From Terebella lapidaria (Eukaryota > Annelida > Polychaeta > Terebellida > Terebellidae): 64,000 nt of DNA. Below are positions 36-46,100 of this stretch, piece by piece. The DNA lies in contig OX424556.1 in NCBI GenBank assembly GCA_949152475.1, forward strand, positions 61,648,451-61,712,450, in the 5' to 3' direction. The notes under the pieces were generated by a model. That model saw only the letters and a list, made by a program, of their open reading frames with translations, was not told the origin of the DNA and searched no databases. The number at the start of each line of letters is the position of its first letter. Within the stretch, counting starts at the first letter, position 1. A program made the translations under genes and the position numbers.

Positions 36-140
36 CTGTACCGTGCTGTTTGCCTCTGTCAGTTTCTCTGTCAGCTCGGCACTCTCCGTCCTAGACACCT
101 CCCGCTCAGACTTGGTGCTCGCTAGTTGTGCCTTTAGCAC
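36..140 (-). CDS. HIP1: HIP1 exon 23 (105-nt coiled-coil module 7, last in window)
   Basis: Residues 730-764: starts VLKAQLASTKSEREV and ends EANSTVQ. The acceptor is aaacag and the donor CAG|gtgggt. The gene continues beyond base 1, so more modules may follow before the THATCH/I-LWEQ domain. Confidence 0.86.
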
Positions 141-3100
141 CTGTTTGACACAACAGAGTACTGTACAACAGTACAATCCCATCTACTCAGTGTGATTTAC
201 ACATATACATGTAAAAACCATGTTACAATTCTCACGGTGCTGACCTTGAGTTCACTGAGCACCTGTTCTCGTTCCTGAGAAACTGACTCATGAGCAGCCT
301 CGGTCGTGTTCTTGGCCTCCTCGACTGACTTCAATTCCGTCTCAAGGGTCTGCAGATTTGATCACCACACTTTCAGTGACATGTGTTGACAGATTTATAC
401 TGACAAAGTAACCCCGTAGCCCCATACAACCATGTACCTGTATCGTGTTGTTGGCCGCGTCCCGTTGCTCTGTCAAGGTCTTGCACTGACCCTGACTGGT
501 GATGAGTTGCGACTCCCGCTCTGCCAGCTGGCGCTCCAGCTCCTGGACATACACAGAGTCACAGTCAGCAGAGATCAAACCTGGCTTACCATCTCAGGTG
601 TATATGGTGTATGTACCAAGATGTACAACTTTCTGGGAATGAGAACCAGTCCATGCTGACCTGTATTTTGTTGAGAGCATCGCTATTTCGCTTCTCTGAC
701 TCCTGCAGAGCCCCTTTTGTGTCGCTCTGTGCTTGTTGTGTGCTTTTTAATTCTTCTTCCATGTTCTATGAATACAAGGTCAAGATGACAACGAACATTT
801 TGATCAATAAATGGTTGCTGTTATGAATACAGCAGTCATGTCTGCTATGAATACACAAATTTCATAACCTGATGATATTATAACACACCGCACCTGTATT
901 GTCTGCTTGGCTTTGATCTGTTTTGTCTGGAGATGTTCACACTCAGTCTGAGAATTCTGAAGCTCCTCGCTTGTTTTCTGTAACTCACCCTCAAGCAGCT
1001 GCAATGTCAAACTTCTGTGCACGCATGCAAACACATAAACAGATAACGTGTTACTGTGGAAATCTACAAATGTACGGAAACAACCAAAAGGTAACCACCC
1101 CACAAAGCACAAAAAGTAATTTAAAAAAGATCAAGCAAAATATGCAATGGCAATGCATTTTATTGTTGTTCTTTTTGGGTGGGGGTTTCTGTGCACAAGT
1201 TCGAAACCAAACTGAGTATGTAAAACAACAAGCAAAACTGATAGAAAAGGTAACAGAAGACAATGAAAGACGACATGCTGTACATGTCCAAACATAATCT
1301 AAAAGTTCATGCAAAATCAAACGCCACCAAATATCCCCAGCACGATATCGCGATCATGCAGACTGGAATATGTAAAGAGGTATGACAGTTGGAGTGATCC
1401 CTGCTGCAGCCGACTGTCACTATTTGGTCATTTTGTAGTACATTATGATGAGTACATGTTTGGTTTTGTAGAACATTATGATGTGTACATGTTTGGTTTT
1501 GTAGAACATTATGATGTGTACATAATTGGTTTTGTACATGTAGAACATTATGATATGTACAGGTTTGATTTTTTAGAACATTATGATGTGTACATGTTTG
1601 ATTTTGTAGAACATTATGATGTGTACATTTTTGGTTTCGTAGAACATTGTGATGTTTGTCTAGCCCATGCAGTCCTTTTAAATCATTAACAACGGTCCTT
1701 AAAAAAACTCAAGGGAAAAGAAATGTGTGAACATATGATCTTGAGAAGCCTACATGTAAAACCGCCTTAACTATCAATAAGAATGGCACCATGACTCCAC
1801 AAGTCACATTTGGCATTCACATCTCTTGCATCAGAACTGAAATGTATGCACCTGTATCAAACCCCACTCCTGACAATAATAGCTACAGTGACAGACTCCT
1901 GACAAACCTGTATTTTACTCAGGGCCTCTGAGTGTTTGTCTCTCTCGGAGCTGTAAGATTGGTCGACACCTGCTTTCTCTGACTTGATCTGTTCGAGTTC
2001 CGTCTCCAGAGTCTGGAATATCACATGATCAGCCACGGATTATTTGCGGAGTTGCTGAGAGAAGCGTGTGTACAGTTTGTTGGGTGGTCTGTACCTGTAT
2101 CTTGCCGAGTGCCTGCTGTTGTTTCTCACTGATTTCCTTGAAGTCTGCCAGAGTTTGTTCTTTCTCCGATGTGACTTCCTGCAACTCAGCCTCTAGAGAC
2201 TGAAACAGCGACACAGAACTGTCACCAACTTGTCAACGCTGATGTTCAAACAGATGTTTAATAATGTCTTGGGTTTACTGTACATCATTTATTCCAATAT
2301 GGTGTTGGTTTTTGGACATGGTTCAGGGGAAATAATAAAATGTGAACAACATTCATGCAAAGAACACAAACAAACTGACAATTCTGAACAGCAACATCAA
2401 GACAAATAACTTTACTTCATCACATTCCGCCAATTTTCCAAAAGTGGAAACCACAGCAACATAACTCACTACACCGGAAGTAGTTCATCAAAATATGCTG
2501 AAAAATTAAGTTTGACAAAGCATATTTTATGGGCATAAATTGACAAGGTTTTTGGCTGAACAATCACAAGCCCTGCCGGACCTGCTGCATGTACTGAGCC
2601 TGTTGGGAGGCACTTTGATGTATACCATACTACGCTTTCTTAACTGTTCACAAATTTCTTGCACAAAATTGTGTTGGGACCCGAAAATCCCACAATGGAG
2701 CTAAAAACATTGAAGTAAAAAGCCAACGTTTGATATTTTTGAGAAAGAAGTGCCAACATGCTGAAACTTGGTGAAGAAAGTTCTGTTTAAGTATGTCTAG
2801 TTACATGGTGATAACGTTCACCGTCATAGAACCAGACTAATAGGTTCAGAAATCAGAATGTCACATGCTAAAAGGTATGACACTTCCTGTACTAAACACG
2901 GTGGCTAACATCTCAATCAGTGAACTAAAAATACTTTATCCCACAGAGCTTCACATACTGCCAGCATCTACATCTTTGTTAGACTAGACCCAGGAGAGAG
3001 TCTACTTTAGACGAGGATGACGAATATAGAATGAACAATTCATGTAAATGATGCATGAACAATATCCATAGGTATGACAACGTATTACTAATTCAAAATA

Positions 3101-6100
3101 AAGAATGTGATTGAAAATAAAATTTGACTGAATTCAGTGCTCAGGTGATGAGGATTTGTGATAGATGTCAACATGTTCTTGGTAGACTACGAGAGTCACT
3201 AGTTCTACAGTTCATGCACACATGCGGGGAAAGTTTGGCAATACCCCTGAATGACGGGCCACATACATGTACTAGCTGCCACCACATCTATTGTCAAGTT
3301 GTCCACCCAGGCCTCCCAGCAACCAGCAATACATGATGTTAATTTTATACACGATGCACACGGAATTATTATGCTTGGGATAAGGCATCTGTGGACAACT
3401 TTTGACTTGCTTTGCACATGCTACATGTGCTAACATACAGTGTACAGAGCTGATCTCAATCCAGTTCACCTTTCAGAGCTAGCTGATATTTGTCCATCTA
3501 TAACTTCCCCTTTAATATTTCACTTTATTTTGATAATCTAATTTATGCTAACTTACAGAAAATAGCCCAGTTCATGTCTTATGGGTTCACAATATAGTTT
3601 GAGAATATGTGCTCGCTACCCCCACCATCCTCCAAAAACCTTGAAGTGAACTGAAACTGAGAGCACCTCTATGTGTTCATTCACAAGCATAGTAAAACGT
3701 CACCTGGGTTCTCACTTCAAGCTGCAATGTAAGCACAAGTATTTTGTTTTTCATGTGACAAATTAATTTGTTGGCCACAACACCATGAAGACAAATACTC
3801 GGTTTATTTACAGTGATTCTGTGATGAAAATCTATCGCATAAGAAAGTGAAAATAATCAATGGTCTTCCAAATGACACCATTCACCATGAATCAAGTCAA
3901 AGCAGGAACCAAGCTAGGGTTTCTATGACAACCACATGGGATTGGTATGGGCCTCGCATTGAACCACAGCCACAGTAATCACGAAATATAAAGTAGAAAT
4001 TATTCCGTTCTCAAAACTTCACCAAGAAAAGTTATCTTCATATATGAGTATGTTATATTCTCTTCCAATGAAATCATGAAGTACACAACAGCATGTACCC
4101 CCCCCCCCCCCCACACACACACCGGACTCCTGTCACACCTGTTTTTTGGCCTCAAGTTGCTCCCGGGCAGAGGTAATGGCAAGAATCTCGGCCGCATTCT
4201 CTGCAGAGCTCTGTTGAAAGGTCGACTCAACGGAACTTTTCTCGTGTGTGAGTTCTTGGACCTGCTGCTCCAGAGTCTGCAACACCACTGACAGTCAGTC
4301 GGGCTTATATCAAGTACAAATAAGTGGAACTTGGCAACATACAGAATGAAACTGATTCACAAAAATACTATCACTAAAACACATCACATTGTTTTCAATA
4401 TTTACATGACATGTACACATCTGAGTATTTGTTAATGAACAAATGCTACATGTACAAAACTTGTGGATCCTTCATACTTACCTTGTTTGTTTCATCAAGT
4501 GTTTCTTTCGCCAGTTTCTCGACAGCCAATGATTTGTTGACTTCAGCATGCTAGGAGATAAATAAACACTGATTACGAGTCATTCAGAAGAAGCTGTGCA
4601 TGGACTACCTAGACGAGAGTTTGTGTACACACCGAGCGCAGCAGTTCCACATGCTCTTGCTTGATCCTTGTGTACATGTCTTTGATCTTCTTGAACTTCT
4701 CTTCGTTGGTTTTAGCTATTTCTGTAATTAGAGTGATTGCCATCAGTTTGCAGGTCCTTGACACCATGAATCACTAATTCCTCATTCGGAAAACTCCCCG
4801 TCACAAAACTCCCCCTGAATCACAAAACTTCCCGTGAACCACCAAACTTCCCCTGAATGCTGAATCACAAAACTCCCCCCTGAACCACCAAACTCTCGCT
4901 GAATCACAAAACTCCCCCTGAATCACAAAACTTAGCATGAACCATTAAACTCCCCCAGAATCACAAAGCTCCCCCTGAACCAGCAAACACTCGTTGAATC
5001 ACAAAACTCCCCCCACCCTCCCCTGAATCACAAAACTGCCCGCTGAATCACCAAACTCCCCATGAATCACCAAACACAAACTGAATCACAAAACTCCCCC
5101 TGAATCACAAAACTCCCCCTGAATCAGAGAACTCCCCCTGAATCACAAAACTCCCCCTGAACAAACACCAAACACATGCTGAATGACAAAACTCCCCCTG
5201 AATCAAAAATCTCCCCAATGAATCACAAAACTCCCTGTGAATCACCAAACATATTCTGAATCACAAAACTCCCCCTGAATCAGAAAACTCCCCTTGAATC
5301 ACAAAATTCCCCATGAATCACAAAACTCCCTGTGAATCACCAAACACATGCTGAATCACAAAACTGCCCTTGAATCACAAAACTCCCCCTGAATCACAAA
5401 ACTCCCCCTGAATCAGAAAACTCCCCCTGAATCACAAAACTCCTCCCTGAACCACCAAACTCCCGCTGAATCACAAAACTCCCCCTTGAATCAGAAAACC
5501 CTCCTAAATCACAAAACTCCCCGTGAACCACCAAACACATGCTGAATCATGATACTTCGCCTGAATCATAAGACTTCCTCTGACCCATGTGGACCTACTT
5601 TCCATGGCCGCAAGTCGAGCAGCAGCATCTTTGTCCTTCTCTCCCGCTTGCAAAACATTGCGCAAATCTTCATTTTCCTACGTATGTAGAAAAATATTTA
5701 ATTATCAGCTGATTATATTTGGCATGTAAGTGATATTGATGTAGTTACTACATGTAGAACAGGTGAAATCAATAGCTGTATGAAATTGTAACAGCCATCA
5801 GAGCTGCCTGCCATACAATGTACCTCCTGTGTGGACTCTGCGATCTGTTTGAGTTCAGTGATCTCAAGCTCCAGCTCCCGGATGCGGTTGTGAAGCGACT
5901 CGGACATCATCCTCTCCTCGGCCTCCAGGCGTGAGATCTCCTCCCGCAGGCGTGTCACCTCAGCTATCAGCTGCTGAATCATCACGTCCCTGCCCAGAGG
6001 GAGAGGGCAACAGATATAAGTCTACCCATAAAACTATAAAATATGGTGTATGATGGCGGCCATTTTTAGATTTCGTGTTTTCGCCCATGGAAATTATGCG

Positions 6101-12100: not shown

Positions 12101-15093
12101 TTGGGACAAAGAAATGATCGTATGTCATTTGTAAGCAGTTGAGGGTTTCCAGGTAGATGTGGAAACACAAGTCATCTTGTATTTCCTGATGATTCCAGTT
12201 CGATGACAATTTGCGTAATATATAGACCAATTTTATCATCGTATATTGATAATTTTCAAAGAACATATGGCCCACAACCTATATTTAAAAATTGAAGTAT
12301 GGAGATCAAAGGATAAAGATGCTAACACCGTGATAAGAATAATATTGATAAGCGATCAATTTCGAACGGGCGGTGTGGATTTCGAACGGTTATTTTTCAT
12401 AGGCGATCAATTTCGAACGTTCAAAAAATATTTTATTCCTCCTGTATAACGTTTTCTATGGGTTCATATCGGTGTCATCATGGTCAGTTTTTGGTGATAC
12501 CACTGTAAGATTCCTTATGATGACACAGAACACGCGGAAATGAGAATTAGCATAATTGTGCAAAGATAACTAGACGTCAAGTCCTAAAGATGCCTTGGAG
12601 GCATTTCGGTGTTAGGACTAATTCGTAATATTTAAAACATGTTAGCCATGGGCTCTATGACACATCGTTTCCTAGATATGGATGAAAATGAAAAATGTCG
12701 ACTCAGCAAAAAAACATTTCAGGTCAAGGTCAAAGTTCATCTGTAATACCCCTTAGACATGTTTGTCTAGAGCCACGAGTCCGAAAACAACGTCCGTTTC
12801 GCTCTACAATGCACCGTTTCCGAGATATCAACGAAAACGAAAAATGCTGACTCAGCAAAAAACCTCAAGGTCAAGGTCAAAGTTCATCTATAATACCCCT
12901 TAGACATGTTTGTCTAGGTCGCCGAGTCTGAAAATGACGTCCGTTTCGCTCTACGACTCATCGTTTCTGAGATATGGACGAAAACGAAATATGCCGACTC
13001 GACAAAAAAATTTCGGGTCAAGGTCATAGTTCATCCATAATACCCTTTAGACATTTTTGTCTAGGGCGACGAATCCGAAAATAACGTCCGTTTCGCTCTA
13101 CGACGCACCGTTTCCGAGATATCGACGAAAACGAAAAATGCCGACTCGGCAAAAAAATTTAAGGTCAAGGTCAAAGTTCATCCATAATACCCCGAAGACA
13201 TGTTTGTCTACGGCGACGAGTCCGAAAATAACGTCCGTTTCGCTCTACGACGCACCGTTTCCGAGATAGCGACGAAATCGAAAAATGCCGACTCGGCAAA
13301 AAAATTTCGGGTCAAGGTCAAAGTTCATCAATAATACCCCTTAGACATGTTTGTCTAGGGCGACAATCCGAAAGTAACGTCCGTTTCGCTCTACGACGCA
13401 CCGTTTCCGAGATATCGACGAAAACGAAAAATGCCGACTCGGCAAAAAAATTTAAGGTCAAGGTCAAAGTTCATCCATAATACCAATTAGACATGTTTGT
13501 CTACGGCGCCGAGTCCGAAAATAACGTCCGTTTCGCTCTACGACGCACCGTTTCCGAGATATCGACGAAAACGAAAAATGCCGACTCGGCAAAAAATTTC
13601 GGGTCAAGGTCAAAGTTCATCCATAATACCCCTTAGACACATTTGTCTAGGGTGGCGAGTCTGAAAATAACGTCCGTTTCGCTCTTAGACGCACCGTTTC
13701 CGAGATATCGACGAAAACGAAAAATGCCGACTCGGCAATAAAATTTCGGGTCAAGGTCAAAGTTCATCAATAATACCCATTCGACATGTTTGTCTAGGGC
13801 GACGAGTCCGAAAATAATGTCCGTTTCGCTCTACGACGCACCGTTTCCGAGATATCGACGAAAACGAAAAATGCCGACTCGGCAAAAAAATTTCGGGTCA
13901 AGGTCAAAGTTCATCAATAATACCCCTTAGGCATGTTTGTCTAGGGCGACGAGTCCGGAAATAACGTCCGTTTCGCTCTACGACGCACTGTTTCTGAAAT
14001 ATCGACGAAAACGAAAAATGCCGACTCGGCAAAAAAATTTAAGGTCAAGGTCAAACAAAGTTCATCCATAATACCCCTTAGACATGTTCGTCTAGGGCGA
14101 CGAGTCCGAAAATAATGTCCGTTTCGCTCTACGACGCACCGTTTCCGAGATATCGACGAAAACGAAAAATGCCGACTCGGCAAAAAATTTTGGGTCAAGG
14201 TCAAAGTTCATCCATAATACCCCTTAGACATGTTTGTCTAGGGCGACAATCCGAAAGTAACGTCCGTTTCGCTCTACGACGCACCGTTTCCGAGATATCG
14301 ACGAAAACGAAAAATGCCGACTCGGCAATAAAATTTCGGGTCAAGGTCAAAGTTCATCAATAATACCCATTAGACATGTTTGTCTAGGGCAACGAGTCCG
14401 AAAATAACGTCCGTTTCGCTCTACGACGCACCGTTTCCGAGATATGCAGGATGCCTCCAGGATGACTCAGCAAAAAATTATGCGACCTCTAGGTCAAAGG
14501 TCGTTTGAGGTATCGATCCCAAAATCAATAGGGTTCTTCCCTGGTGATATATAAACCTCCGTGCAAATTCTGCAACTATTGCCTGTATATTTTTCGAGTT
14601 ATCGTCCGGAAACCAAGTTTCAAGATCAGCCTCGATTTCATCCTCACGGACCTCACGGACCTCGGAGGCGGATCAAAAAAAAAAATTCCCCTTAGAGATG
14701 TTTGTCTAGGGCGACGAGTCCGAAAATAACGTCCGTTTCGCTCTACGACGCACGGTTTCCGAGATATGCAGGAAGCCTCAAGGATGAACGAGCAAAAAAT
14801 TATTTTGACCTCTAGGTCAAAGGTTGTTTGACGGATCGATCCCAAAATCAATAGGGTTCTTCCCTGGTGGCATATGAACCTCCATGCAGAGTTCTGCAAC
14901 TATTGCGTAAATATTTTTCCAGTTATCGTCCGGAAACCAAGTCTCAAAATTAGCCTTGATTTCATCCTCACGGACATCGGATCCGGCTCAAAAAGAATAG
15001 GGTTCTTCCACACATCATTTCTGACTTGTGGTGAAAATTTGATGAGGATCCGTCAAGGCAATCTAAAGTTATCGTCCGGAAACCAAAATTGGG

Positions 15094-21100: not shown

Positions 21101-24100
21101 GTGAGGGATTATGCATGGATATGAGCCTGGGGTCAAGTTGGACATGCTAGCTGTATCACTTGTCAGGCATGACTGAGCAGGGCTGGCTAAGAGGGCGGAG
21201 CCTATCTTGCTGTGCTGGACAGACTGGCTGCTCTTGTAAGGCTAACTGAGCAGGGCTGGCTGAGAGGGGCGGAGCCTATCGCTGTGCTGGACAGAGTGGC
21301 TGATCTTGTAAGACATTACTGAGCAGGGCTCTCATATACTGCACTAGCTGAGAGGGCAGAGCCTAGCCTCATGCTGGACATGCAGGCTGCAGTCAGTGAA
21401 TACAGTAGCATGGCTCAGTTACAGTATTACATCTGCATGGGGGCAGGCAAGGGAAAAATTCCAAGACATTGACAGGAATCGCCCGATTTTTTTTTCCAAA
21501 ATGGCCGCTGGCGGCCATCTTGGATTTCAGATCTCGACGAAAAACAATAGGGGTTAGGAGCAAAGTATTTCGGATGAGCTGTGAAAATTTCAGAAAGATA
21601 GATCAAGGCGTTCAAGAGTTATGATCCGGAAACCAAACGGCGGAAGAAAAAAAAAAAAACAAAAAAAAAAAGAAGAAAAAAAAAAAAAAAAAAACAGACA
21701 AAAACATAAGGCCTCCCGATTTTCAATCGGGATGTCTAATAATGTTAACTTATTCAGTACACCCATGAAATCTGTACTGGACATACTTTCACCTTGTTGA
21801 GCTTAATAATAAATATTTCTCATCTTAACTATTTTTATTGTGGTCAATGATAGATTTAACTATTTTTATTGTGGTCAATAATAGACTTAACTAGTGAAAA
21901 TAATAGTGAAAACTAGACGTCAAGGCCTAAAAATGCCTTGGAGGCATTTCGGTGTGATGAATAATTTATAATACTAGATATCGACGAAAATGAAAAATGT
22001 CGACAAATTTCGGGTCAAGGTCAAAGTTAATCCATAATACCCCTTAGACATGTTTGTCTAGGGCGACGAGTCCGAAAGTAACGTCCGTTTCGCTCTACGA
22101 CGCACCGTTTCCGAGATATCGACGAAAACGAAAAATGCCGACTCGGCAAAAAAATTTCGGGTCAAGGTCAAAGTTCATCCATAATACCCCTTAGACATGT
22201 TTGTCTAGTGCGACGAGTCCGAAAATAACGTCCGTTTCGCTCTACGACGCACCGTTTCCGAGATATCGACGAAAACGAAAAATGCCGACTCGGCAAAAAA
22301 ATTTCGGGTCAAGGTCAAAGTTCATCCATAATACCCCTTAGACATGTTTGTCTAGTGCGACGAGCCCGAAAATAACGTCCGTTTCGCTCTACGACGCACC
22401 GTTTCCGAGATAACGACGAAAACGAAAAATGCCAACTCGGCAAAAAAATTTCGGGTCAAGGTCAAAGTTCATCAATAATACCCCTTAGACATGTTTGTCT
22501 AGTGCGACGAGTCCGAAAATAACGTCCGTTTCGCTCTACGACGCACCGTTTCCGAGATATCGACGAAAACGAAAAATGCCGACTCGGCAAAAAAATTTCG
22601 GGTCAAGGTCAAAGTTCATCCATAATACCCCTTAGACATGTTTGTCTAGTGCGACGAGTCCGAAAATAACGTCCGTTTCGCTCTACGACGCACCGTTTCC
22701 GAGATAACGACGAAAACGAAAAATGCCGACTCGGCAAAAAAATTTTGGGTCAAGGTCAAAGTTCATCAATAATACCCCTTAGACATGTTTGTCTAGTGCG
22801 ACGAGTCCGAAAATAACGTCCGTTTCGCTCTACGACGCACCGTTTCCGAGATATCGACGAAAACGAACGAGTCCGAAAATAACGTCCGTTTCGCTCTACG
22901 ACGCACCGTTTCCGAGATATCGACGAAAACGAAAAATGCCGACTCGGCAAAAAAATTTCGGGTCAAGGTCAAAGTTCATCCATAATACCCCTTAGACATG
23001 TTTGTCTAGTGCGACGAGTCCGAAAATAACGTCCGTTTCGCTCTACGACGCACCGTTTCCGAGATATCGACGAAAACGAAAAATGCCGACTCGGCAAAAA
23101 AATTTCGGGTCAAGGTCAAAGTTCATCCATAATTCCCCTTAGACATGTTTGTCTAGTGCGACGAGTCCGAAAATAACGTCCGTTTCGCTCTACGACGCAC
23201 CGTTTCCGAGATATCGACGAAAACGAAAAATGCCGACTCGGCAAAAAAATTTCGGGTCAAGGTCAAAGTTCATCAATAATTCCCCGTAGACATGTTTGTC
23301 TACTGCGACGAGTCCGAAAATAACGTCCGTTTCGCTCTACGACGCACCGTTTCCGAGATATCGACGAAAACGAAAAATGGCGACTCGGCAAAAAAATTTC
23401 GGGTCAAGGTCAAAGTTCATCCATAATACCCCTTAGACATGTTTGTCTAGTGCGACGAGTCCGAAAATAACGTCCGTTTCGCTCTACGACGCACCGTTTC
23501 CGAGATATCGACGAAAACGAAAAATGCCGACTCGGCAAAAAAATTTCGGGTCAAGGTCAAAGTTCATCCATAATACCCCTTAGACATGTTTGTCTAGTGC
23601 GACGAGTCCGAAAATAACGTCCGTTTCGCTCTACGACGCACCGTTTCCGAGATATGCAGGATGAATCAAGGATGACTCAGCAAAAAATTATTTCGACCTC
23701 TAGGTCAAAGGTCGTTTGAGGTATCGATCCCAAAATCAATAGGGTTCTTCCCTGGTGATATATAAACCTCCGTGCAAAATTCTGCAACTATTGCCTGAAT
23801 ATTTTTTGAGTTATCGTCCGGAAACCAAGTTCCTCGATTTCATCCTCACGGACCTCACGGACCTCGGAGCCGGATCAAAAAAAAAAGTACACCCTAGAGA
23901 TGTTTGTCTAGGGCGACGAGTCCGAAAATAACGTCCGTTTCGCTCTATGACGCACGGTTTCCGAGATATGCAGGAAGCCTCAAGGATGAATCAGCAAAAA
24001 ATTATTTTGACCTCTAGGTCAAAGGTCGTTTGACGGATCGATCCCAAAATCAATAGGGTTCTTCCCTGGTGGCATATGAACCTCCATGCAGAGTTCTGCA

Positions 24101-25157: not shown

Positions 25158-28100
25158 AGCCAAATCCATAGTATCCGCCGAACTTTGTTCGGGGGATACA
25201 ATAATAAATAATCATTAAAACTGCCGATGTGCTTCAAAAGCATTCCACAGGTCAGTAAAGTTTCAGCGAGGTGGTAAATATAAATATTTGTGACATAAAC
25301 ATCAGACAAATATACTTTTCACCTACTTTAACTAATATGTGGACCGTTCAAAATAGATCGCCAACCGTTCGAAATTGACCATCAACCGTTCGAAATTGAT
25401 CACCAAGCCCGTTCGAAATGATTTTACCGTGCCACCGCTTATCTACAGTGGTCATCCAAGGTCAAGATCAAGGTCATCACTAGTTGTTCCATGAACAACT
25501 AGCGTGAAATTTTTTTTTTTGCCTAGAAATGGCCCAAAATGGATAGTAATGCGATTTGGGGCGAAAAATTTCTTTTTCGCCGACTCGTCAAAAATTCAAA
25601 ATGGCCACCACATGGAGACCAGCGAATCAAGGGCAACCAAACTTATACACATCACAGAGGTACATAAGGGGAATCTTTTGAGTAGTAGTAGTAATTTATT
25701 TCCAAACTATACAAGCATAACATGCCTCAAATAATATCGAATATAATACAGTATAGTTTGTGGTTAAGACCAAGGCAATTCTTTGCCTGTTGACCCCAAA
25801 ATAAGCATAGTAACATAAAAATAAAACAGGGATGCTGGGGCTGGACTGAACCTCAGAATAATGATATATACAATTAAGAACGAGCTACATGAGAGAATGT
25901 TGCCCGCGTCCGTCCACGAGCGTCCATCACCCCGGGTGCCCCACGCGTATCTGTTTTTTTTTTTTTCGAAGGATTAAACATTTTGATCATACTCAGATAT
26001 AAAATAGTTTTTCAGACGTGAGTCGAAACCAGTAAGAGTTTTTGAATTTTTTAGTTGGGTTGGTAAGCGTGACCATATTTCAGGTCCTTTGAAGAGGAAG
26101 CTGTCACATACTGTTTTCCGGGAAATCGGAAATCTATGCACATCATTACGTTGTCGTGTATTTATTGAATGCACTCGATCGTTGAGCAGGTAAATGCTAC
26201 TCAGAGAATTGGGCAATTTGTTATTAATGTGTCGATAGACGAACTGGCACAATTGTGAATTATAAATATCATTTCGATTCAGAATTCTTAATTTTCTGAA
26301 AAGGGGCATTGTGTGTGAATTATATGGTGCTTTGGCTACTGCCCTGATACATTTTTTTTGTAGTACTACCAGTTTGTTCAGATAAGTTTTACACGCAGAA
26401 CCCCACAATAAATTGCTAAATATGAAATGGGAGTGGACTAAAGAAAAATATAGCATTCTTAGGTTATTTACAGATAAATATTTTTTGGCTATATTCAGGG
26501 CATACAGACCGCTTCGGACTTTGTTTACGCATTTATTTATATGTTCGTGCCATTTCAGCTTATTGTCAATAAAGACGCCTAAAAATTTTACAACACTGAC
26601 TTGGTTGATTTGACAACCATCTATGATAATATCATTCCCGTTGGTTACTTGTAGATTATCAGTGTAATAAAATAGCATGTGATTAGTTTTCGAGACATTT
26701 AAAGATAATTTATTTGCTTTAAACCAATCTGACAGAGTATTAAGTTGTATATTCATATTGTTAACCATTTCATCAATACTATCAGAAAACAACTATTTGA
26801 TACTATTTGAAACAAAAATCTCAAAACTGTCTGAACGGTTTTTGAGAAAATGGCCATCAAAGTTCAAAACGGGCAATTTTCAACGAAAATAGCCGCCATT
26901 TCGAGGAAAATGCGAAAATAAAAAAAACGAGAAAAAAAACCTTTCCCGGGAATATTTTCAGCTATTTTTGTGCAAAAATTTCAGAAAGATTCGACCGCAA
27001 ACTTCAAAGATGAAAATGTGGACGGACGGACGGACGAATGGATGCCGGACACAATGCCATGCCAATAGGTTATCGGACCATAGGTCCGAAAACCTAAAAA
27101 TAGCAATCAACCAAGCTGTACAGTCAATTCGTTAGAAATGTACATTGTACATGTATCCTTACAGACTATATGTTAAATGTCAAAACTGATCATCTTACAA
27201 TTTACAGGATCATGTTTTTGATGTATTTCAAAGCCGAGTCAAAGGCTTTTTACTCCCATTGGTTAAAATCAATGATTACCATGATTACTGGTACTACCCA
27301 TATTGATCCATGTAATTCCCACATGCCAAAATGGCGGCAGACGGAAAGGTGTCCGTACACACATGGCACATAACCATGATAACAGTTTGGTGGGACACGG
27401 AGCGCGGGTCATGAGATAAACACACAAATTTTCCCCACAGGAATTTTCTATCCAGAAAGATGCAGGGCGAGAATTTCATAGTATTTTGCGAGAATCAAGG
27501 GACATTTTGCGAGAATCTTTACGAGAATCAATTCTCGGATTCTGGCCGAATTTCTAGCCCTGTCAGGTCAAAAGGATCGAAAAGGAACATAGTAGTATGT
27601 GTAGTTTAGATTGGCAATGTGTGGGATAAACTGCCATTTTATCAGCGTCTTTTACAAGCCAACTGACACAGATCCTTTCAGTAAGCAGCAGCAAATTTGT
27701 ATAAGTTTTATATCCCACAAGCCAAGGTATCCAGGTGGTCATAAACGTTACCATCCCATGAACTAAACACTTAAATATGAGATGTCAGGCTATATACAGA
27801 CTCGTATCAAGCACACGTATCACCCCTCACACAACATACCCCTGGCAGCGACATCTGGTGACAAAGAAAGCAAACACATGCAGCACAGTGACTTCAAATA
27901 CCAGCAAACCTGTTCGTTTCCCTTGTATAAATTTGTTTTGTATTCCCTATAAAATGTGAATTACATCCCCATATATAAATTTTTTTGTATCCCAATGTAA
28001 AACTTGACTTGTATCCCCATGTATACGTTGTTTTGTATCCCCATGTATACGTTGTTTTGTGTCCCCATGTATACGTTGTTTTGTGTCCCCATGTATACGT

Positions 28101-31100
28101 TGTTTTGTATCCCCACGTATACGTTGTTTTGTATCCCCATGTATACGTTGTTTTGTGTCCCCATGTATACGTTGTTTTGTATCCCCATGTATACGTTGTT
28201 TTGTATCCCCATGTATACGTTGTTTTGTGTCCCCATGTATACGTTGTTTTGTATCCCCATGTATACGTTGTTTTGTGTATCCATGTATACGTTGTTTTGT
28301 ATCCCCATGTATACGTTGTTTTGTATCCCCATGTATACGTTGTTTTGTATCCCCATGTATACGTTGTTTTGTATCCCCATGTATACGTTGTTTTGTGTCC
28401 CCATGTATACGTTGTTTTGAGTCCCCATGTATACGTTGTTTTGTGTCCCCATGTATACGTTGTTTTTGTCCCCATGTATACGTTGTTTTGTGTCCCCATG
28501 TATACGTTGTTTTGTGTCCCCATGTATACGTTGTTTTGTATCCCCATGTATACCTTGTTTTGTGTCCCCATGTATTCGTTGTTCTGTATCCCCATGTATA
28601 CGTTGTTTTGTGTATCCATGTATACGTTGTTTTGTATCCCCATGTATACGTTGTTTTGTATCCCCATGTATACGTTGTTTTGTGTCCCCATGTATACATT
28701 GTTTTGTGTCCCCATGTATACGTTGTTTTGTGTCCCCATGTATACATTGTTTTGTGTCCCCATGTATACGTTGTTTTGTGTCCCCATGTATACGTTGTTT
28801 TGTGTCCCCATGTATACGTTGTTTTGTATCCCCATGTATACGTTGTTTTGTGTCCCCATGTATACGTTGTTTTGTCTCCCCATGTATACGTTGTTTTGTC
28901 TCCCCATGTATACGTTGTTTTGTGTCCCCATGTATACGTTGTTTTGTATCCCCATGTATACGTTGTTTTGTATCCCCATGTATACGTTGTTTTGTGTCCC
29001 CATGTATACGTTGTTTTGTATCACCATGTATACGTTGTTTTGTGTCCCCATGTATACGTTGTTTTGTGTCCCCATGTATACGTTGTTTTGTGTCCCCATG
29101 TATACGTTGATTTGTATCCCCATGTATACGTTGTTTTGTATCCCCATGTATACGTTGTTTTGTATCCCCATGTATACGTTGTTTTGTGTCCCCATGTATA
29201 CATTGTTTTGTGTCCCCATGTATACATTGTTCTGTATCCCCATGTATACGTTGTTTTGTGTCCCCATGTATACGTTGTTTTGTATCACCATGTATACGTT
29301 GTTTTGTGTCCCCATGTATACGTTGTTTTGTGTCCCCATGTATACGTTGTTTTGTGTCCCCATGTATACGTTGTTTTGTATCCCCATGTATACGTTGTTT
29401 TGTCTCCCCATGTATACGTTGTTTTGTATCCCCATGTATACGTTGTTTTGTGTCCCCATGTATACGTTGCTTTGTATCCCCATGTATACGTTGTTTTGTA
29501 TCACCATGTATACGTTGTTTTGTGTCCCCATGTATACGTTGCTTTGTATCCCCATGTATACGTTGTTTTGTATCCCCATGTATACGTTGTTTTGTGTCCC
29601 CATGTATACGTTGTTTTGTATCCCCATGTATACGTTGTTTTGTGTCCCCATGTATACGTTGTTTTGTGTCCCCATGTATACGTTGTTTTGTGTCCCCATG
29701 TATACGTTGTTTTGTATCCCCATGTATACGTTGTTTTGTGTCCCCATGTATACGTTGTTTTGTATCCCCATGTATACGTTGTTTTGTGTCCCCATGTATA
29801 CGTTGTTTTGTATCCCCATGTATACGTTGCTTTGTATCCCCATGTATACGTTGTTTTGTATCCCCATGTATACGTTGCTTTGTGTCCCCATGTATACGTT
29901 GCTTTGTGTCCCCATGTATACGTTGTTTTGTGTCCCCATGTATACGTTGTTTTTGTCCCCATGTATACGTTGTTTTGTGTCCCCATGTATACGTTGTTTT
30001 GTGTCCCCATGTATACGTTGTTTTGTATCCCCATGTATACGTTGTTTTGTATCCCCATGTATACGTTGTTTTGTATCCCCATGTATACGTTGTTTTGTAT
30101 CCCCATGTATACGTTGTTTTGTATCCCCATGTATACGTTGTTTTGTGTCCCCATGTATACGTTGTTTTGTGTCCCCATGTATACGTTGTTTTTGTCCCCA
30201 TGTATACGTTGTTTTGTGTCCCCATGTATACGTTGTTTTGTATCCCCATGTATACGTTGTTTTGTATCCCCATGTATACGTTGTTTTGTCTCCCCATGTA
30301 TACGTTGTTTTGTGTCCCCATGTATACGTTGTTTTATGTCCCCATGTATACGTTGCTTTGTGTCCCCATGTATACGTTGTTTTGTGTCCCCATGTATACG
30401 TTGTTTTTGTCCCCATGTATACGTTGTTTTGTATCCCCATGTATACGTTGTTTTGTATCCCCATGTATACGTTGTTTTGTGTCCCCATGTATACGTTGTT
30501 TTGTATCCCCATGTATACGTTGTTTTGTGTCCCCATGTATACGTTGTTTTGTATCCCCATGTATACGTTGTTTTGTGTCCCCATGTATACGTTGTTTTGT
30601 GTCCCCATGTATACGTTGTTTTGTATCCCCATGTATACGTTGTTTTGTTTCCCCATGTATACATTGTTTTGTATCCCCATGTATACGTTGTTTTGTATCC
30701 CCATGTATGAACTTGTTTTGTATCCCCATGTATACGTTGTTTTGTGTCCCCATGTATACGTTGTTTTGTGTCCCCATGTATACGTTGTTTTGTGTCCCCA
30801 TGTATACGTTGTTTTGTGTCCCCATGTATACGTTGTTTTGTATCCCCATGTATACGTTGTTTTGTGTCCCCATGTATACGTTGTTTTGTATCCCCATGTA
30901 TACGTTGTTTTGTGTCCCCATGTATACGTTGTTCTGTGTCCCCATGTATACGTTGTTTTTGTCCCCATGTATACGTTGTTTTGTGTCCCCATGTATACGT
31001 TGTTTTGTGTCCCCATGTATACGTTGTTTTGTATCCCCATGTATACGTTGTTTTGTATCCCCATGTATACGTTGTTTTTGTCCCCATGTATACGTTGTTT

Positions 31101-34100
31101 TTGTCCCCATGTATACGTTGTTTTGTGTCCCCATGTATACGTTGTTTTGTGTCCCCATGTATACGTTGTTTTGTATCCCCATGTATACGTTGTTTTGTGT
31201 CCCCATGTATACGTTGATTTGTCTCCCCATGTATACGTTGTTTTGTGTCCCCATGTATACGTTGTTTTGTGTCCCCATGTATACGTTGTTTTGTATCCCC
31301 ATGTATACGTTGTTTTGTATCCCCATGTATACGTTGTTTTGTCTCCCCATGTATACGTTGTTTTGTGTCCCCATGTATACGTTGTTTTGTGTCCCCATGT
31401 ATACGTTGATTTGTATCCCCATGTATACGTTGTTTTGTATCCCCATGTATACGTTGTTTTGTATCCCCATGTATACGTTGTTTTGTATCCCCATGTATAC
31501 GTTGTTTTGTGTCCCCATGTATACGTTGTTTTGTATCCCCATGTATACGTTGTTTTTGTCCCCATGTATACGTTGTTTTTGTCCCCATGTATACGTTGTT
31601 TTGTGTCCCCATGTATACGTTGTTTTGTATCCCCATGTATACGTTGTTTTTGTCCCCATGTATACGTTGTTTTTGTCCCCATGTATACGTTGTTTTGTAT
31701 CCCCATGTATACGTTGTTTTGTGTCCCCATGTATACGTTGTTTTGTATCCCCATGTATACGTTGTTTTGAGTCCCCATGTATACGTTGTTTTGTATCCCC
31801 ATGTATACGTTGTTTTGTATCCCCATGTATACGTTGTTTTGTATCCCCATGTATACATTGTTTGGTATCCCCATGTATACGTTGTTTTTGTCCCCATGTA
31901 TACGTTGTTTTGTATCCCCATGTATACGTTGTTTTGTATCCCCATGTATACGTTGTTTTGTATCCCCATGTATACGTTCTTTTGTGTCCCCATGTATACG
32001 TTGTTTTTGTCCCCATGTATACGTTGTTTTGTGTCCCCATGTATACGTTGTTTTGTATCCCCATGTATACGTTGTTTTGTACCCCCATGTATACGTTGTT
32101 TTGTATCCCCATGTATACGTTGTTTTGTATCACCATGTATACGTTGTTTTGTGTCCCCATGTATACGTTGTTTTGTGTCCCCATGTATACGTTGTTTTGT
32201 GTCCCCATGTATACCTTGTTTTGTGTCCCCATGTATACGTTGTTTTGTATCCCCATGTATACGTTGTTTTGTATCCCCATGTATACGTTGTTTTGTGTCC
32301 CCATGTATACGTTGTTTTGTGTCCCCATGTATACGTTGTTTTGTGTCCCCATGTATACCTTGTTTTGTGTCCCCATGTATACGTTGTTTTGTATCCCCAT
32401 GTATACGTTGTTTTGTATCCCCATGTATACGTTGTTTTGTGTCCCCATGTATACGTTGTTTTGTATCCCCATGTATACGTTGTTTTGTGTCCCCATGTAT
32501 ACGTTGTTTTGTATCCCCATGTATACGTTGTTTTGTATCCCCATGTATACGTTGTTTTGTGTCCCCATGTATACGTTGTTTTGTGTCCCCATGTATACCT
32601 TGTTTTGTATCCCCATGTATACGTTGTTTTTGTCCCCATGTATACGTTGTTTTGTATCCCCATGTATACGTTGTTTTGTGTCCCCATGTATACGTTGTTT
32701 TGTCTCCCCATGTATACGTTGTTTTGTCTCCCCATGTATACGTTGTTTTGTGTCCCCATGTATACGTTGTTTTGTCTCCCCATGTATACGTTGTTTTGTG
32801 TCCCCATGTATACGTTGTTTTTTGTCCCCATGTATACGTTGTTTTTGTCCCCATGTATACGTTGTTTTGTGTCCCCATGTATACGTTGTTTTGTATCCCC
32901 ATGTATACGTTGTTTTTGTCCCCATGTATACGTTGTTTTTGTCCCCATGTATACGTTGTTTTGTATCCCCATGTATACGTTGTTTTGTGTCCCCATGTAT
33001 ACGTTGTTTTGTGTCCCCATGTATACGTTGTTTTGTATCCTCATGTATACGTTGTTTTGTATCCCCATGTATACCTTGTTTTGTGTCCCCATGTATACGT
33101 TGTTTTGTATCCCCATGTATACGTTGTTTTGTGTCCCCATGTATACATTGTCCCCATGTATACGTTGTTTTGTATCCCCATGTATACGTTGTTTTGTGTC
33201 CCCATGTATACGTTGTTTTGTATCCCCATGTATACGTTGTTTTGTATCCCCATGTATACGTTGCTTTGAGTCCCCATGTATACGTTGCTTTGAGTCCCCA
33301 TGTATACGTTGTTTTGTATCCCCATGTATACGTTGTTTTGTATCCCCATGTATACGTTGTTTTGTGTCCCCATGTATACGTTGTTTTGTGTCCCCATGTA
33401 TACGTTGTTTTGTATCCCCATGTATACGTTGTTTTGTATCCCCATGTATACGTTGTTTTGTGTCCCCATGTACATTATGTATACGTTGTTTTGTGTCCCC
33501 ATGTATAACTTGTTTTGTGTCCCATGTGTAAACCTGCTCTTTATTCCGATGTGTAAGCTTGTTTTGTGTCCCATGTGTAAAGGTTCACACTGAGATTTTG
33601 CTTTTTCCAGCATGAGTTAGAAACTGAATGGTCAAAATATTAGGAAAATAAACAGAGAGAAATTGAAATTTTGCCTGAAATATTTTGCTTTGAAAACAAC
33701 AAAACTTTTAATGTTCTTGATTCACCGACAAACATGATTTATGCATGAATATCTGTGCTTCAAACTTTGGATGAATAATACAAATCAATTTCCAAAACAT
33801 TGACAACATGCAAGTATATGTTCTATATAATCATAAGTATGATGATGGCATTAGGAATGAGGAATGCTCAGATCAAGAGACTACATGCTCACTTAACTCC
33901 GACTTGCCTGACATGGACAGGTAAGGCGACGAGTGAGAGGTACTCACTGGAGTGGAGTTTGAAGAGGATTTTGACAATGGCATCATAGAGCTGACATGAG
34001 TCTTGTATACACGGGATCAGTGGTGACAGGCGACACTGGCCAACCGGGGTCATAGAGTTAGCCCGCGACATGTCCAGGGACCCAAACACTGAAAGACAAC

Positions 34101-40100: not shown

Positions 40101-43100
40101 TGTAGCGCGTTCACAAGAAAATCTCTGCGGACGCGGACGCGGACACGGACGCGGACGACAAAGCCAAATCCATAGTATCAAGGGGATACAATAATAAATA
40201 ATCATTAAAACTGCCGATGTGCTTCAAAAGCATTCCACAGGTCAGTAAAGTTTCAGCGAGGTGGTAAATATAAATATTTGTGACATAAACATCAGACAAA
40301 TATACTTTTCACCTACTTTAATATGTGGACCGTTCAAAATAGATCGCCAACCGTTCGAAATTGACCATCAACCGTTCGAAATTGATCACCAAGCCCGTTC
40401 GAAATGATTTTACCGTGCCACCGCTTATCTACAGTGGTCATCCAAGGTCAAGATCAAGGTCATCACTAGTTGTTCCATGGTGATTGGGTGAGAATTGCGG
40501 CCTGTAGCGCGTTCACAAGCCATGTGTCTCAAACAGGCTGTTTTCAATGCAAAATGTGTCCCCAAACGACCAATTCAGTTGATACGGCAACCAAAATCGA
40601 TTGGTGTCGGGATCTTACCATTATATATGTGCCTGCAAAAAATAATGGTGATTGAGTGAGAATTGCGGCCTGTAGCGCGTTCACAAGAAAATCTTTGCGG
40701 ACGCGGACGCGGATGCGGACGACGAAGCCAAATCCATAGTATCCGACGAACTTTGTTCGGGGGATACAATTAGCATGATTAGCAAGCCCCATATCACAGC
40801 TCCATATACACATGTACATATATATATATACCATGCAGAATTTGTTCTGCTTATTGTATTCATCTCAAAGTAATTATAACCCTACTTGTATTTATTATTA
40901 TGGTCACATAGAAAATGTAGAAACCTACAACAGCGTGTTTTTGTTAACGGTAAACACGAATGCTTTTTAATTCAGTGTTGTTGATTCAGTTAAGCATAGT
41001 TATTTTGTTGACAAATAAAAACAGGGATCGATTGTTCCAAAAGGAAAACAAGTATAAGTCGCGCCCGCGACAATTGGGCGGGTTGCATCGAGGAGGGCTG
41101 TTAGTGGAAGGAATTGGCATTGTTCTCATGTATTATCAAGTTCGAAGTCCTGCCACGACTTGAAAAATAGGTTAAGGTCACCCATCATCGAACTTGTCCG
41201 AGATCTGCTCATGATGCACCTCCGGTATGATTTTGGCGGTATTTCATTAAAAACTTTGTAAGTTATCGCGTTCACAAGGTACAAAGTCCTGTTTTCATGT
41301 ATTGTCAAGTTCGAAGTCCTGCCACGACCTGAAAAATAGGTCAAGGTCACCCATCATCGAACTTGTCTGAGATCTGTTCATGATGCACCTCTGGTATGAT
41401 TTTGGCGGTATTTCGTTAAAAACTTTGTAAGTTATCGCGTTCACAAGGTACAAAGTCCTGTTTTCATGTATTGTCAAGTTCGAAGTCCTGCCACGACCTG
41501 AAAAATAGGTCAAGGTCACCCATCATCGAACTTGTCCGAGATCTGCTCATGATGCACCTCTGGTATGATTTTGGCGGTATTTCGTTAAAAACTTTGTAAG
41601 TTATCGCGTTCACAAGGTACAAAGTCCTGTTTTCATGTATTGTCAAGTTCGAAGTCCTGCCACGACCTGAAAAATAGGTCAAGGTCACCCATCATCGAAC
41701 TTGTCCGAGATCTGCTCATGATGCACCTCTGGTATGATTTTGGCGGTATTTCGTTAAAAACTTTGTAAGTTATCGCTTTCACAAGAAATTGTTGACGGAC
41801 GGACGGACGGACGGGTGAACGGATGGGCGTTACGGGCGGACCCAATGTTAAATTTCCTATCTTAACTTTCCCCATAAGTCCTGAAAAAATCCCCATAAGA
41901 CCGCACTTTTGGCTTAAACTGTGGTTGTGGGGCGTTTTCAGCTTTATTCCCCCTAAGAAATCCCCATAACTCCGTTCCGTTTGCCCGGCTAGACGGACGG
42001 ATGGACAGACGGACACGCCAATCTAATAGGCGGGTTGGTTGCACGCAACCCGCCCAACAAAGACAAAACTTTCTTGTGATTGGGTGAACTCTAATGAGGC
42101 ATTGCTTACGTCATTAAATTCATGCACTCATTACGCGGTGCCGTTTGTGACGTCAGGAAGGAATGTTTTCTGAGCGGTCCCCGGGAGAACCCGTGAGTTT
42201 TCCCAGTTGAATCCACAGTTTCGTCATTTTGAGACTCATTAGGCACGATTGAATATAAGGAGCAACCCTTTTTCTTTTACCAATTACTAGTACTATGATA
42301 TCATTCATGAAACCATGTATCGGTTCATCATCCATGAGTATGTACCTACCTAGTTATGGGTCGCGGGTCATTTGTCTTGGTGAAATTGTAACTTTTAAGT
42401 TTACCATGTTTACATTTAAGTCGATTGGAAAAGTGGCTCACTGCAGTAGGTATCTTACATGCAATCAGTCCTTAAAACCACACACCAACCTTTTTGTGGA
42501 AGTTTAGTTTCTGGACGAGAAGTTTTGTGTAGTGAGAGTTGAGTCGGCCGTGATGATCCTTTAGGTGTCCCTGTTAGGACAGAAATTCTTGTCAGAATTG
42601 ACCACTCATTAACGAAGTATTGTCTTGTAACTGACACTGAGAATAATTTACCCAGAGCTTGCCCAGATCCGTCAGGAAGCCACAGTATCGGTACGATTCC
42701 GGAATTGTCTGAAACACGTTATCATAATTTTGGTAACAACTGTTACCTAAAGCAATCACAAACATGCGAGTGATGACAAAATTACGAACTGTGTGGGTCG
42801 TGGCGACTTACATTAGCGTGCCCATCTCGCATCAGTTTGTGCAGAACATTACAGAACTTCCAGCAGATGATGGGGTTCCCTTGGAGCTGAAAGCGAAGAA
42901 CAATCGACCAGAACAGACCAGCACCATGCTCCTGGTGACTGCCGATAATCGCACCTTGGTGGGGGGTCAAGGCGTGTAACCATAGTAACACAGCAGAACG
43001 AAAAGAGGGCAAATTTCCACTGCGGCACACCTTTTTTAGTGCTAACATATTTTTGACAGACTGTAATGTTACCACAGTCCTGGTTACAGTCAGGGTTGAC

Positions 43101-46100
43101 ACAAATATATCAAGCTCTTTTTCATCATAGTGGGAATTGCAGCAAATCGTTCCCCTAAAGCAAAAATGGCATACAAGTCATTGTTAGTGGTTTTGAGATA
43201 ATCAGTTTAAAAAGTTTCTTGCCTTTAAATTTGAAGTGAAAGCTTCCGAATTCAGCGACCTATAGCATGAATATCCAAGGAGTGTACCACTGTATTTCAG
43301 TTACCATCAATGTTCTTCTTATTTATAAGTGAATGGCTAATTAACTAAGATTAGCATGACTTACGCCAAAGAAGCTCTCGTTGTCAAGTTACTGGACAGA
43401 ATCACTAATGCAATTTTGGCGTATCTCACGAAGGTCCTAAAGCATTAATGGCGTAACTCAACAGCTAATGCAATTTTGGCGTAAGTCATCACAAACACTA
43501 GAACAGTTTGGTGTAACTCAAGATCAAAATGGCGTAAGTCAAGCCTCGAGATGCCCCATTATGTTATAGGCTTCTAGTTATTCAATGGTGCTGAATACAA
43601 CCAGGAGTAATCTACGAGCAGGTAGTGGACATGTCAAGCATTACTTTGGTATGTCTCACTGAGTGAGTTACGCCAAAAATCGAGTTAAGCCATTTTTGCT
43701 TTAGGGGGATGAAATGTAAATGTCCCTGCATGTAACTATACTGACTTGATGATGAAACTTGTGAACTCATGATTTTGTAAACTTTGTGCGTAGAAATAAC
43801 ATGTGAATTTGGGGAGACATTTTGGGTGTGATTAATCATGTTAGCCTGGTAAAATATTGCCTAGCTATGATGTTTATAACAATATAATACCTTGCTATAA
43901 CTAAGAAAGTAAGGTCAGCTGAAGTGAAGAACATGACATTTTTTCTGTCAGAGAGAGGAGGGGGCACTCTCCCATTTATATAGGGTATATGCTATGGAGC
44001 GTTTTTAGGGTCAATATTCATTGACATACATTGTAGATTTTCTTGTTGTGAATTATTATTTCAATCGCAAAATTCTTTATTCCACATTACTATTTCTGAA
44101 CTTTCTGTGTCGAATTTACATATTCTTACTGGATAGTTCTAATTTCCATCTCCTTACTGCTTATTTCCAAGTTCTCACTGGTACTTTCTCAAGTCTTTAT
44201 TCATCATGCCAAATTCTAACACCTTTGTTCACGCAAACTATTAAAAAACAAATCGCATCTGGCACAATGCATATGGGACTTAGCACATTTCACTTAGAAT
44301 AAAGCACATCGCACGAAGAACAAAGCACAACGAATGACGCATTTCATGTGCCAAAATTACTACTGCACTATTATGACGACAGACGGCGCTGCGGGTCGAG
44401 TGGCCACATTGGGAATGAGAAACTGAAGACTCCCGGATGAAGGAAAGACCTTGCTTCGATGGACCGCTTGTCCGGTGCTGTATTTTTAGCTTACCGACCC
44501 ATGGCCCGATAACTTGGTTGAATCGAAGAAAACTTCTGGGGTTTAGGGGGTTGAAAAAGCTAAAGATAGCCCCTAAACTCACTTTTTATGAGCAGACGTG
44601 TATTTAGGGGATTAATTTGGGGATAAGGGGCTCACACGGGAGAGGAAATTTAATATGGTGAAATCCCTTTAACCTAAAAATTTGGTACGTTCGTCCGTCG
44701 TCCGTCCGGCAAATAACTTTTTGTGCCTTGATGAATTTTTCTGAAAATTTACTAAATCATTCCTTGGACTAATACCCTGAAACTGTTTTTTTTTTCGTTT
44801 TTTTTTATTCAATCCTTTTTGCCGATTGGCAGCCATTTTTTATGAAAAGTGGCTAATTTTGGACTTTGATGGCCTTTTTCTCGAAAACTGTCTGATCAGT
44901 TTGAGATTTTTGTTTCAAGGCATCTCCCTCATGTACATCAATGGCAAGTTTCATTGCCCTTGAATCGCCACTCTGCGTGTGGCAGCCATTTTGATTTTTT
45001 GACGTATCTGCGAAAAAAAATTTTTTTGTCCCAAATCGAGCCACTATTCGTTCTGAGCCATTTCCAGCAATTTTTAGGCTACCGGAACTATGGTCCGATA
45101 ACCTATTGGCATGGCGTTGCGTCCGTCGTCCGTCGTCCGTCGTCGTCGTCGTCCGTCGTCGTCGTCGTCCACTTTTTTGTTTACGGGCGAATTTTTCTGA
45201 AATTTTGCACAAAAATACCTAAAAATAATTCAAGAAGGAGGTATTTTTTAGTTTTTTTATTTTCCCATTTTTTTCAAAATGGCGGCCGTTTTCGACGAAA
45301 AATGCCTGATTTTGGACTTTGGCGGCCATATTCTCAAAATCTGTTCAGTAACTTTTTTTCTTCTTGATACATGAGACTCCTGATATGTACTCCTATGATG
45401 TCTATGAATTTCGTTGCACTTGAATCGCTCGAAGTGGGCCATTTTGGCCCAAACTCGGCCAAAATGGGACTTTGCCATGTTAAATTCTCCTATGCTTTAT
45501 AATGGGACACATTATGCCTAATATCTCACTTGATATTGAGATTAGAGACTAGGAATCAATTGTGGACATATAGGAAATGATATAAGCTGAATATTCTCGT
45601 GACCTTGAATTTGACCTCTGACCTCAGTTTCAAGGTCAGAGCACAAAATGGCTTATATCTCGCTTATTATCTACTCTACAGCTTAGGAATCAATTGTGGA
45701 CATATAGGAAATAATATATGCTGAATATTCTCGTGACCTTGAATTTGACCTCTGACCTCAGTTTCAAGGTCAGAGCACAAAATGGCTTATATCTCGCTTA
45801 TTATCGACTTTACAGCTTAGGAATCAATTGTGGACATATAGGAAATGATATATGCTGAATATTCTGATGACCTTGAATTTGACCTTCGAACTCATTTTCA
45901 AGGTCACAGGACAAAATGGCTAATATCTCGTTTGTTATCGACTTTACAGCTTAGCAATCAACTAGACGTCAAGGCCTAAAGATGCCTTGGAGGCATTTCG
46001 GTGTGATGAATAATTTATAATACTAGATATCGACGAAAATGAAAAATGTCGACAAATTTCAGGTCAAGGTCAAAGTTCATCCATAATACCCGCTAGACAT

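Follow-up and report, generated by a model that had tools for sequence, protein, structure and literature searches.

An annelid HIP1 gene with a row of eleven 105-nt coiled-coil exons, probably an old duplication that lengthens the rod

The window analysed here is a stretch of 64,000 nucleotides from the annelid Terebella lapidaria (C2:61648451-61712450 of a 761.6-Mb genome; window coordinate x is C2:61648450+x). It holds the middle part of a HIP1 gene that lies on the minus strand and exits the window on its left side, and the scans therefore covered 154 kb, the window plus 90 kb on its left (Table 1). Linkers of the HIP1 family couple actin to the membrane in endocytosis. Two exons match the ANTH domain above the cut-off and three places match the actin-binding I/LWEQ domain (E 1.6e-19, 4.5e-13 and 1.6e-5), collinear with them. 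Two of the three I/LWEQ matches contain one stop each, and that of E 1.6e-19 extends past the exon end, judging by its coordinates. From the first coil exon to I/LWEQ exon p9, 25 exons of compatible phase can be joined to give a stop-free reading of 944 codons, and the joined gene model matches Pfam I_LWEQ at E 4.1e-34. The original prediction held that the gene is HIP1 and that an array of repeated coil exons separates its ANTH end from its actin-binding end; the domains flanking the array on one strand and the unbroken chain of exons between them bear this out.

Splice sites outside the array were chosen by eye, the p3 donor and the p9 acceptor at least with frame and homology in mind. The linker exon on the ANTH side, also read by eye, ends in a phase compatible with the first coil exon, and human HIP1, used as bait, brought up more ANTH, linker and C-terminal exons, in order. 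The I/LWEQ side of the joined model amounts to 243 residues, 21 fewer than the 264 of human HIP1, so a small exon may be absent from the model. PF16515 (HIP1_clath_bdg) matches neither the gene nor the joined model, its sole match being a sub-threshold one on C5; it is taken here as non-defining, family membership being set by ANTH, coil and I/LWEQ. Matches of eight further Pfam families to the joined model all stayed below the cut-off.

No second HIP1 paralogue was seen in a search of the genome for I/LWEQ, in which all 15 candidates were scored. The remaining I/LWEQ matches are a cluster on C3, which I take to be talin, and, on C8, one match below threshold that contains stops; the remaining ANTH matches are a gene on C4, presumably PICALM-like, and a weaker match on C1.

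Table 1. Exons and domain matches of the HIP1 gene, in the order of the minus strand. Positions are window coordinates unless prefixed with C2.
Feature	Position	Strand	Length	Phase	Remarks
ANTH exon match	42800..42949 = C2:61691250-61691399	-			PF07651 positions 26-76, E 8.2e-7
ANTH exon match	33946..34065 = C2:61682396-61682515	-			PF07651 positions 175-212, E 1.8e-4
First coil exon	5824..5989	-	166 nt		starts DVMIQQL; placed by phase chain
Coil exon	5599..5677	-	79 nt		placed by phase chain
Coil exon	4633..4721	-	89 nt		ends ELLRS, first half of presumed clathrin-light-chain site
Coil exon	4482..4550	-	69 nt	0-0	starts HAEVNK, second half of presumed clathrin-light-chain site
Coil exon directly upstream of array	4139..4276	-	138 nt (46 aa, 35+11)	0-0	
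Module M1	2095..2199	-	105 nt (35 aa)	0-0	
Module M2	1908..2012	-	105 nt	0-0	A type
Module M3	894..998	-	105 nt	0-0	B type
Module M4	661..765	-	105 nt	0-0	A type
Module M5	438..542	-	105 nt	0-0	B type
Module M6	245..349	-	105 nt	0-0	A type
Module M7	36..140	-	105 nt	0-0	B type; last within window
Module M8	-169..-65	-	105 nt	0-0	left of window
Module M9	-1217..-1113	-	105 nt	0-0	left of window
Module M10	-2204..-2100	-	105 nt	0-0	left of window
Module M11	-3349..-3245	-	105 nt	0-0	left of window
Coil exon next after M11	-3687..-3507	-			
I/LWEQ exon p9	-15600..-15371	-			
I/LWEQ matches	C2:61632600-61632740, 61632794-61633078, 61640057-61640158	-			PF01608

The array had been predicted as seven exons. 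All seven are indeed 105 nt long, free of stops, preceded by AG and followed by GT, and in phase 0 at both ends, but the count was too low: four more lie within 3.4 kb to the left of the window edge, bringing the total to eleven modules and 385 amino acids. These four, M8 to M11, came from a scan of the sequence left of the window for open AG-105-GT/GC frames, which are common in their own right (the minus strand of the 154 kb has 172). Introns within the array measure 82-1040 nt. A profile of the eleven modules, whose own E-values in that search are in-sample, finds no twelfth in the 154 kb, on both strands and in stop-to-stop frames of at least 15 codons; the next match has E 0.12. Searched with the 385-aa array, the genome gave the array's own eleven exons and six matches of E 0.03-2.8 among the 107 of 594 candidates scored; these six are taken for generic coils, and a weak second array may exist among the rest. 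The module profile run against the PDB drew 17 weak matches, the best at E 0.11, mostly to generic or designed coils.

Three introns of the gene carry repeats that resemble their own splice junction. In the intron before p9, a 48-nt minisatellite (-15360..-8479) has a unit that matches the 3' splice junction of p9 (TTCCCTGGCAG|TGACGCGGC); counting the real junction, 27 copies are exact, 91 lie within 2 mismatches and 99 within 4, and there are none elsewhere on the minus strand of the 154 kb. With a unit length divisible by 3 and the frame of p9 open over a long stretch, use of acceptors further upstream could add units of 16 aa. The intron after M9 holds a 20-nt minisatellite (-2000..-1215) whose unit, CAGGTGTGACTGG, is nearly the 5' splice junction of M9: the real junction is one base off it, 20 copies are exact and 40 lie within 2 mismatches (42 in the 154 kb), and about 40 donor-like sites thus stand behind one exon of the array. 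After exon p4 there are 3.4 copies (Tandem Repeats Finder) of a 101-nt unit (-6307..-5934) that repeats the 3' end and donor of that exon, with 5 sites at up to 4 mismatches.

The window itself holds further repeats. A 24-nt repeat, in 230 copies that span 5.5 kb and open in several frames of the minus strand, lies among the introns on the ANTH side (27966-33472), and a 147-nt satellite-like repeat stands in tandem arrays at 12652-14445, 22005-23655, 46054-47510 and 52588-53922, with consensus units alike by eye. Elsewhere in the assembly, COX1 of the mitochondrial contig (C438) reads sensibly under the invertebrate code, in which AGA stands for Ser, AAA for Lys and ATA for Met. The tRNA order of that contig, F-E-P-T..C-M-M..V..L-A-S-L..I-K..S..N..D..Y-G..Q..W..H, with Arg not found, is presumably the annelid order. 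Two adjacent trnM genes are described in PMC3282830 for Terebellidae, Trichobranchidae, a pectinariid and some sipunculids. The mitochondrial contig thus marks the animal as an annelid and probably a terebelliform. Another COX1 match, split and with internal TGA codons, lies at C417:44633-46450, on a contig of at least 46 kb, and may be a nuclear copy or belong to another organelle.

Are the modules relatives, or merely coils of one length? Aligned in register, the eleven have a summed pairwise BLOSUM62 score of 1669. Shuffles that keep heptad positions give 608 +/- 80 (maximum 967), and rotation of modules by whole heptads gives 609 +/- 107 (maximum 1068); none of 2000 reaches the real value in either case. 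The interior alone (residues 7-33) scores 823 against 375 +/- 65 (maximum 672, again 0 of 2000 shuffles). Profiles built with one module left out recover each of M1 to M7 (E 1.7e-6 to 0.0067), with no more than 4 of 200 shuffles doing as well. They are marginal for M8 and M9 (16 and 21 of 200 shuffles as good) and fail on M10 and M11 (54 and 142 of 200). Judged by sequence, it is certain that M1-M7, all of them in the window, are relatives, and M8-M11 count as members by length, phase, position and joint score. Read in this way the modules are duplicates, homologous beyond their heptad composition, individually clear for M1-M7 only. The exons on either side gave no such signal. The first 20 residues of the 46-aa exon upstream look like a module by eye; as 106 of 500 shuffles do equally well, the exon is not put forward as seed of the array. 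For the coil exon downstream the figure is 82 of 500.

From M2 onwards the modules tend to alternate in type, even against odd. Mean similarity is 37.7, 36.7, 35.6 and 36.0 between modules 2, 4, 6 and 8 places apart, against 26.9, 19.0, 29.3, 27.5 and 29.5 at distances of 1, 3, 5, 7 and 9; the single pair at distance 10, M1 and M11, has 21.0. The alternation was first noticed in the very matrix that was tested, so the ranks of the parity split are no independent tests: with BLOSUM62 it is the best of 126 distinct 5+5 splits of M2-M11 (2 of 252 counting mirror images) and third of 462 for M1-M11, and by plain identity it ranks 4 of 252 (equal to 2 of 126) and 5 of 462, respectively. Codon positions taken singly rank it, for M2-M7 and M2-M11, at 8 of 20 and 10 of 252 (first positions), 2 of 20 and 2 of 252 (second), and 2 of 20 and 6 of 252 (third). 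When M2, M4 and M6 serve as reference for type A and M3, M5 and M7 for type B, M8 (31 vs 12) and M10 (38 vs 15) fall to A and M9 weakly to B (24 vs 29); against strict alternation, M11 is slightly A (28 vs 25) and M1 is A as well (54 vs 42). The types differ at core position 20 (Y, L, H, L, L in even modules; C, C, S, R, L in odd ones from M3), at core position 23 (E, S, V, L, L; L, L, L, L, M) and at position 31 (L, L, L, L, V; K, N, N, L, D). The simplest history, as these patterns suggest, would be a founder exon followed by the copying of two-exon blocks of 70 residues.

As a rod the array is regular. Hydrophobic residues over the 385 positions give a single strong peak at a period of 3.498 residues, with a power of 7.2 (the next peak has 1.6), while 1000 shuffles reach at most 1.5 between 3.3 and 3.8. 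The claim that five-heptad modules preserve both frame and heptad register is thereby upheld. A hendecad repeat (11/3) can be rejected, with power 0.08, and there is no proline in the array. A single heptad phase fits best from near the end of the upstream exon, through the array and for some 20 residues past it; further upstream the phase differs, and the switch lies in or near the 46-aa exon. The prediction of a core of ten hydrophobic positions in each module fared less well. The 3-4 pattern is real, but hydrophobic residues fill just 67 of the 110 core places (34 of 275 elsewhere). Counting A as hydrophobic, positions 2 and 6 are so in all 11 modules, 30 in 10, 23 and 34 in 9 each and 20 in 6, against 4 for position 9, 3 each for 13 and 16, and 1 for 27. 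With so much of the core polar in the middle of the module, the rod may be soft or partly open. At the standard rise of 0.1485 nm per residue of a coiled-coil helix, the predicted coil would run to about 93 nm (about 626 residues) with the array and about 36 nm (about 241 residues) without it, one module contributing 5.2 nm.

Where in the protein the extra length falls can be judged from a motif upstream of the array. The junction ELLRS|HAEVNK aligns with the motif by which human HIP1 binds clathrin light chain, weakly: the structure 2NO2 is matched at E 0.24 and the stretch itself at 1.5, and the best match in that structure search was Homer 3 (E 0.0079), above 2NO2. In human HIP1, according to PMC3005887, light-chain binding depends on L486 or R487, plus K474 and K494, and conservation of the basic patches does not extend to fly, worm and yeast. 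In the weak alignment with 2NO2, L486, R487 and K494 are present and K474 is replaced by M. From the start of the coil to the LLR motif there are 107 residues here and 111 in human HIP1; from that motif to the I(R/Q)D(S/A)L element that precedes the I/LWEQ side there are 528 here and 150 in human HIP1. The spacing is thus about equal before the motif and very different after it, which puts the extension after the presumed light-chain site and ahead of the actin-binding end, and it agrees with the earlier claim that the array is an addition compared with human HIP1. PMC4357291 cites the Hip1R coil as about 40 nm, near the length predicted here without the array, and gives about 30 nm from the membrane for the C terminus of yeast Sla2 and about 22 nm for the clathrin lattice.

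I propose, as the probable reading, that this annelid HIP1 acquired a long, constitutively spliced spacer by an old tandem duplication of one five-heptad exon. One coiled-coil exon of phase 0 would have been copied in tandem to eleven, probably largely as A-B blocks, long enough ago for introns and third codon positions to show hardly any resemblance now, while the exons held exactly to their length, frame and register. I infer that all eleven exons are normally spliced together, making the coil about 57 nm longer than it would be without them. The coil before the clathrin site would keep about its human length, and actin would be held much further from the coat, or be reached from beyond it.

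The age of the array also bears on a plainer alternative, that it is an ordinary old spacer with no special role, the outcome of neutral exon duplication, common to many annelids or other invertebrates and undescribed because invertebrate HIP1 has been little studied. Third codon positions of different modules are 33.5% identical, where composition alone predicts 27.0%, and no pair of introns between modules is more alike than E 0.019 over 18 nt (plus strand). Both are nearly saturated, so the copies must be old and relatives should share the array, just as an ordinary spacer would have it. A literature search, judged from titles and the openings of abstracts, brought up no such HIP1 exon array, which suits this view as well. 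Yet free drift should leave stops, indels and lost splice sites, and all eleven exons have remained open, in register and exactly 105 nt long despite silent sites that are near saturation. A spacer without a role is possible but doubtful.

The original prediction went on to a rod of adjustable length: the array would be alternatively spliced, module number would vary, and the coil would be tuned in steps of about 5.2 nm. Every one of the eleven exons is symmetric and made of whole heptads, so any subset would join in frame and in register. The donor sites speak on both sides. Of the 4 consensus bases at +3..+6, which make up their intronic halves, the modules match a mean of 2.0 and 14 further exons of the gene 3.14, so these halves are weaker in the modules (Mann-Whitney p 0.0008), but their exonic halves are perfect, 33 of 33 bases fitting MAG against 23 of 42 in the other exons, and the total match comes out equal (5.0 vs 4.8 of 7; p 0.26), which rules out an overall weakness of donors in the array. 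On this balance, alternative use of the modules is unlikely. The same sites explain part of a protein motif. Among the seven modules first predicted, the start x-L-E-x-[EQ]-L holds strictly in 5 and the end [KT]-[IV]-Q in 6, much as had been claimed. The conserved terminal Q or K stands, but as a feature of the module alone it does not, being also the exonic half of a 5' splice site: the eleven end in CAG (8) or AAG (3), and the conserved final residue reflects, at least in part, a signal for splicing that shows up in the protein.

A more specific extension would make HIP1 a molecular ruler, whose spliced length sets the distance from clathrin to actin, rather than that from membrane to clathrin, in steps of 5.2 nm or, by A-B pairs, 10.4 nm. 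I regard this as quite improbable.

Mutually exclusive splicing, as in Dscam-type clusters, would put one module into each protein and give diversity of sequence while coil length hardly changed; homologous exons that stand in tandem and agree in length and phase are typical of such clusters, and a coil of about 36 nm without the array comes close to the 40 nm or so cited for Hip1R (PMC4357291), but it is very improbable, since the introns, at least 82 nt long, permit all exons to join, a length divisible by three means that inclusion of several exons brings no frameshift, and no common selector-like sequence was found in the introns (plus strand). The A/B order, too, fits neighbours that coexist in one protein best, though block duplication alone would leave it as well.

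How does the proposed long, constitutively spliced spacer compare with systems already known? With HIP1, HIP1R and Sla2 the gene shares ANTH, a coil in compatible frame and I/LWEQ, in that order on one strand, and an LLR..AEV.K motif at the place of the human light-chain site (weak alignment); unlike them, it has 385 more coil residues, carried by eleven tandem 105-nt exons, and PF16515 goes unrecognised. Duplicated or alternative in-frame coiled-coil exons are familiar from tropomyosin and from the 35-residue insert of CLIP-170, where coil segments likewise come from in-frame exons. Here, however, there are eleven copies in a row, they tend to a two-exon alternation, and they belong to an endocytic actin linker.

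If the spacer is made as proposed, nature has provided a HIP1 whose coil is more than doubled in length, with the whole addition lying beyond the presumed clathrin site, towards actin, and it would offer a direct test of whether that distance matters. The exon array would be a clean case of a rod that grew by exon duplication under exact constraint of length and register.
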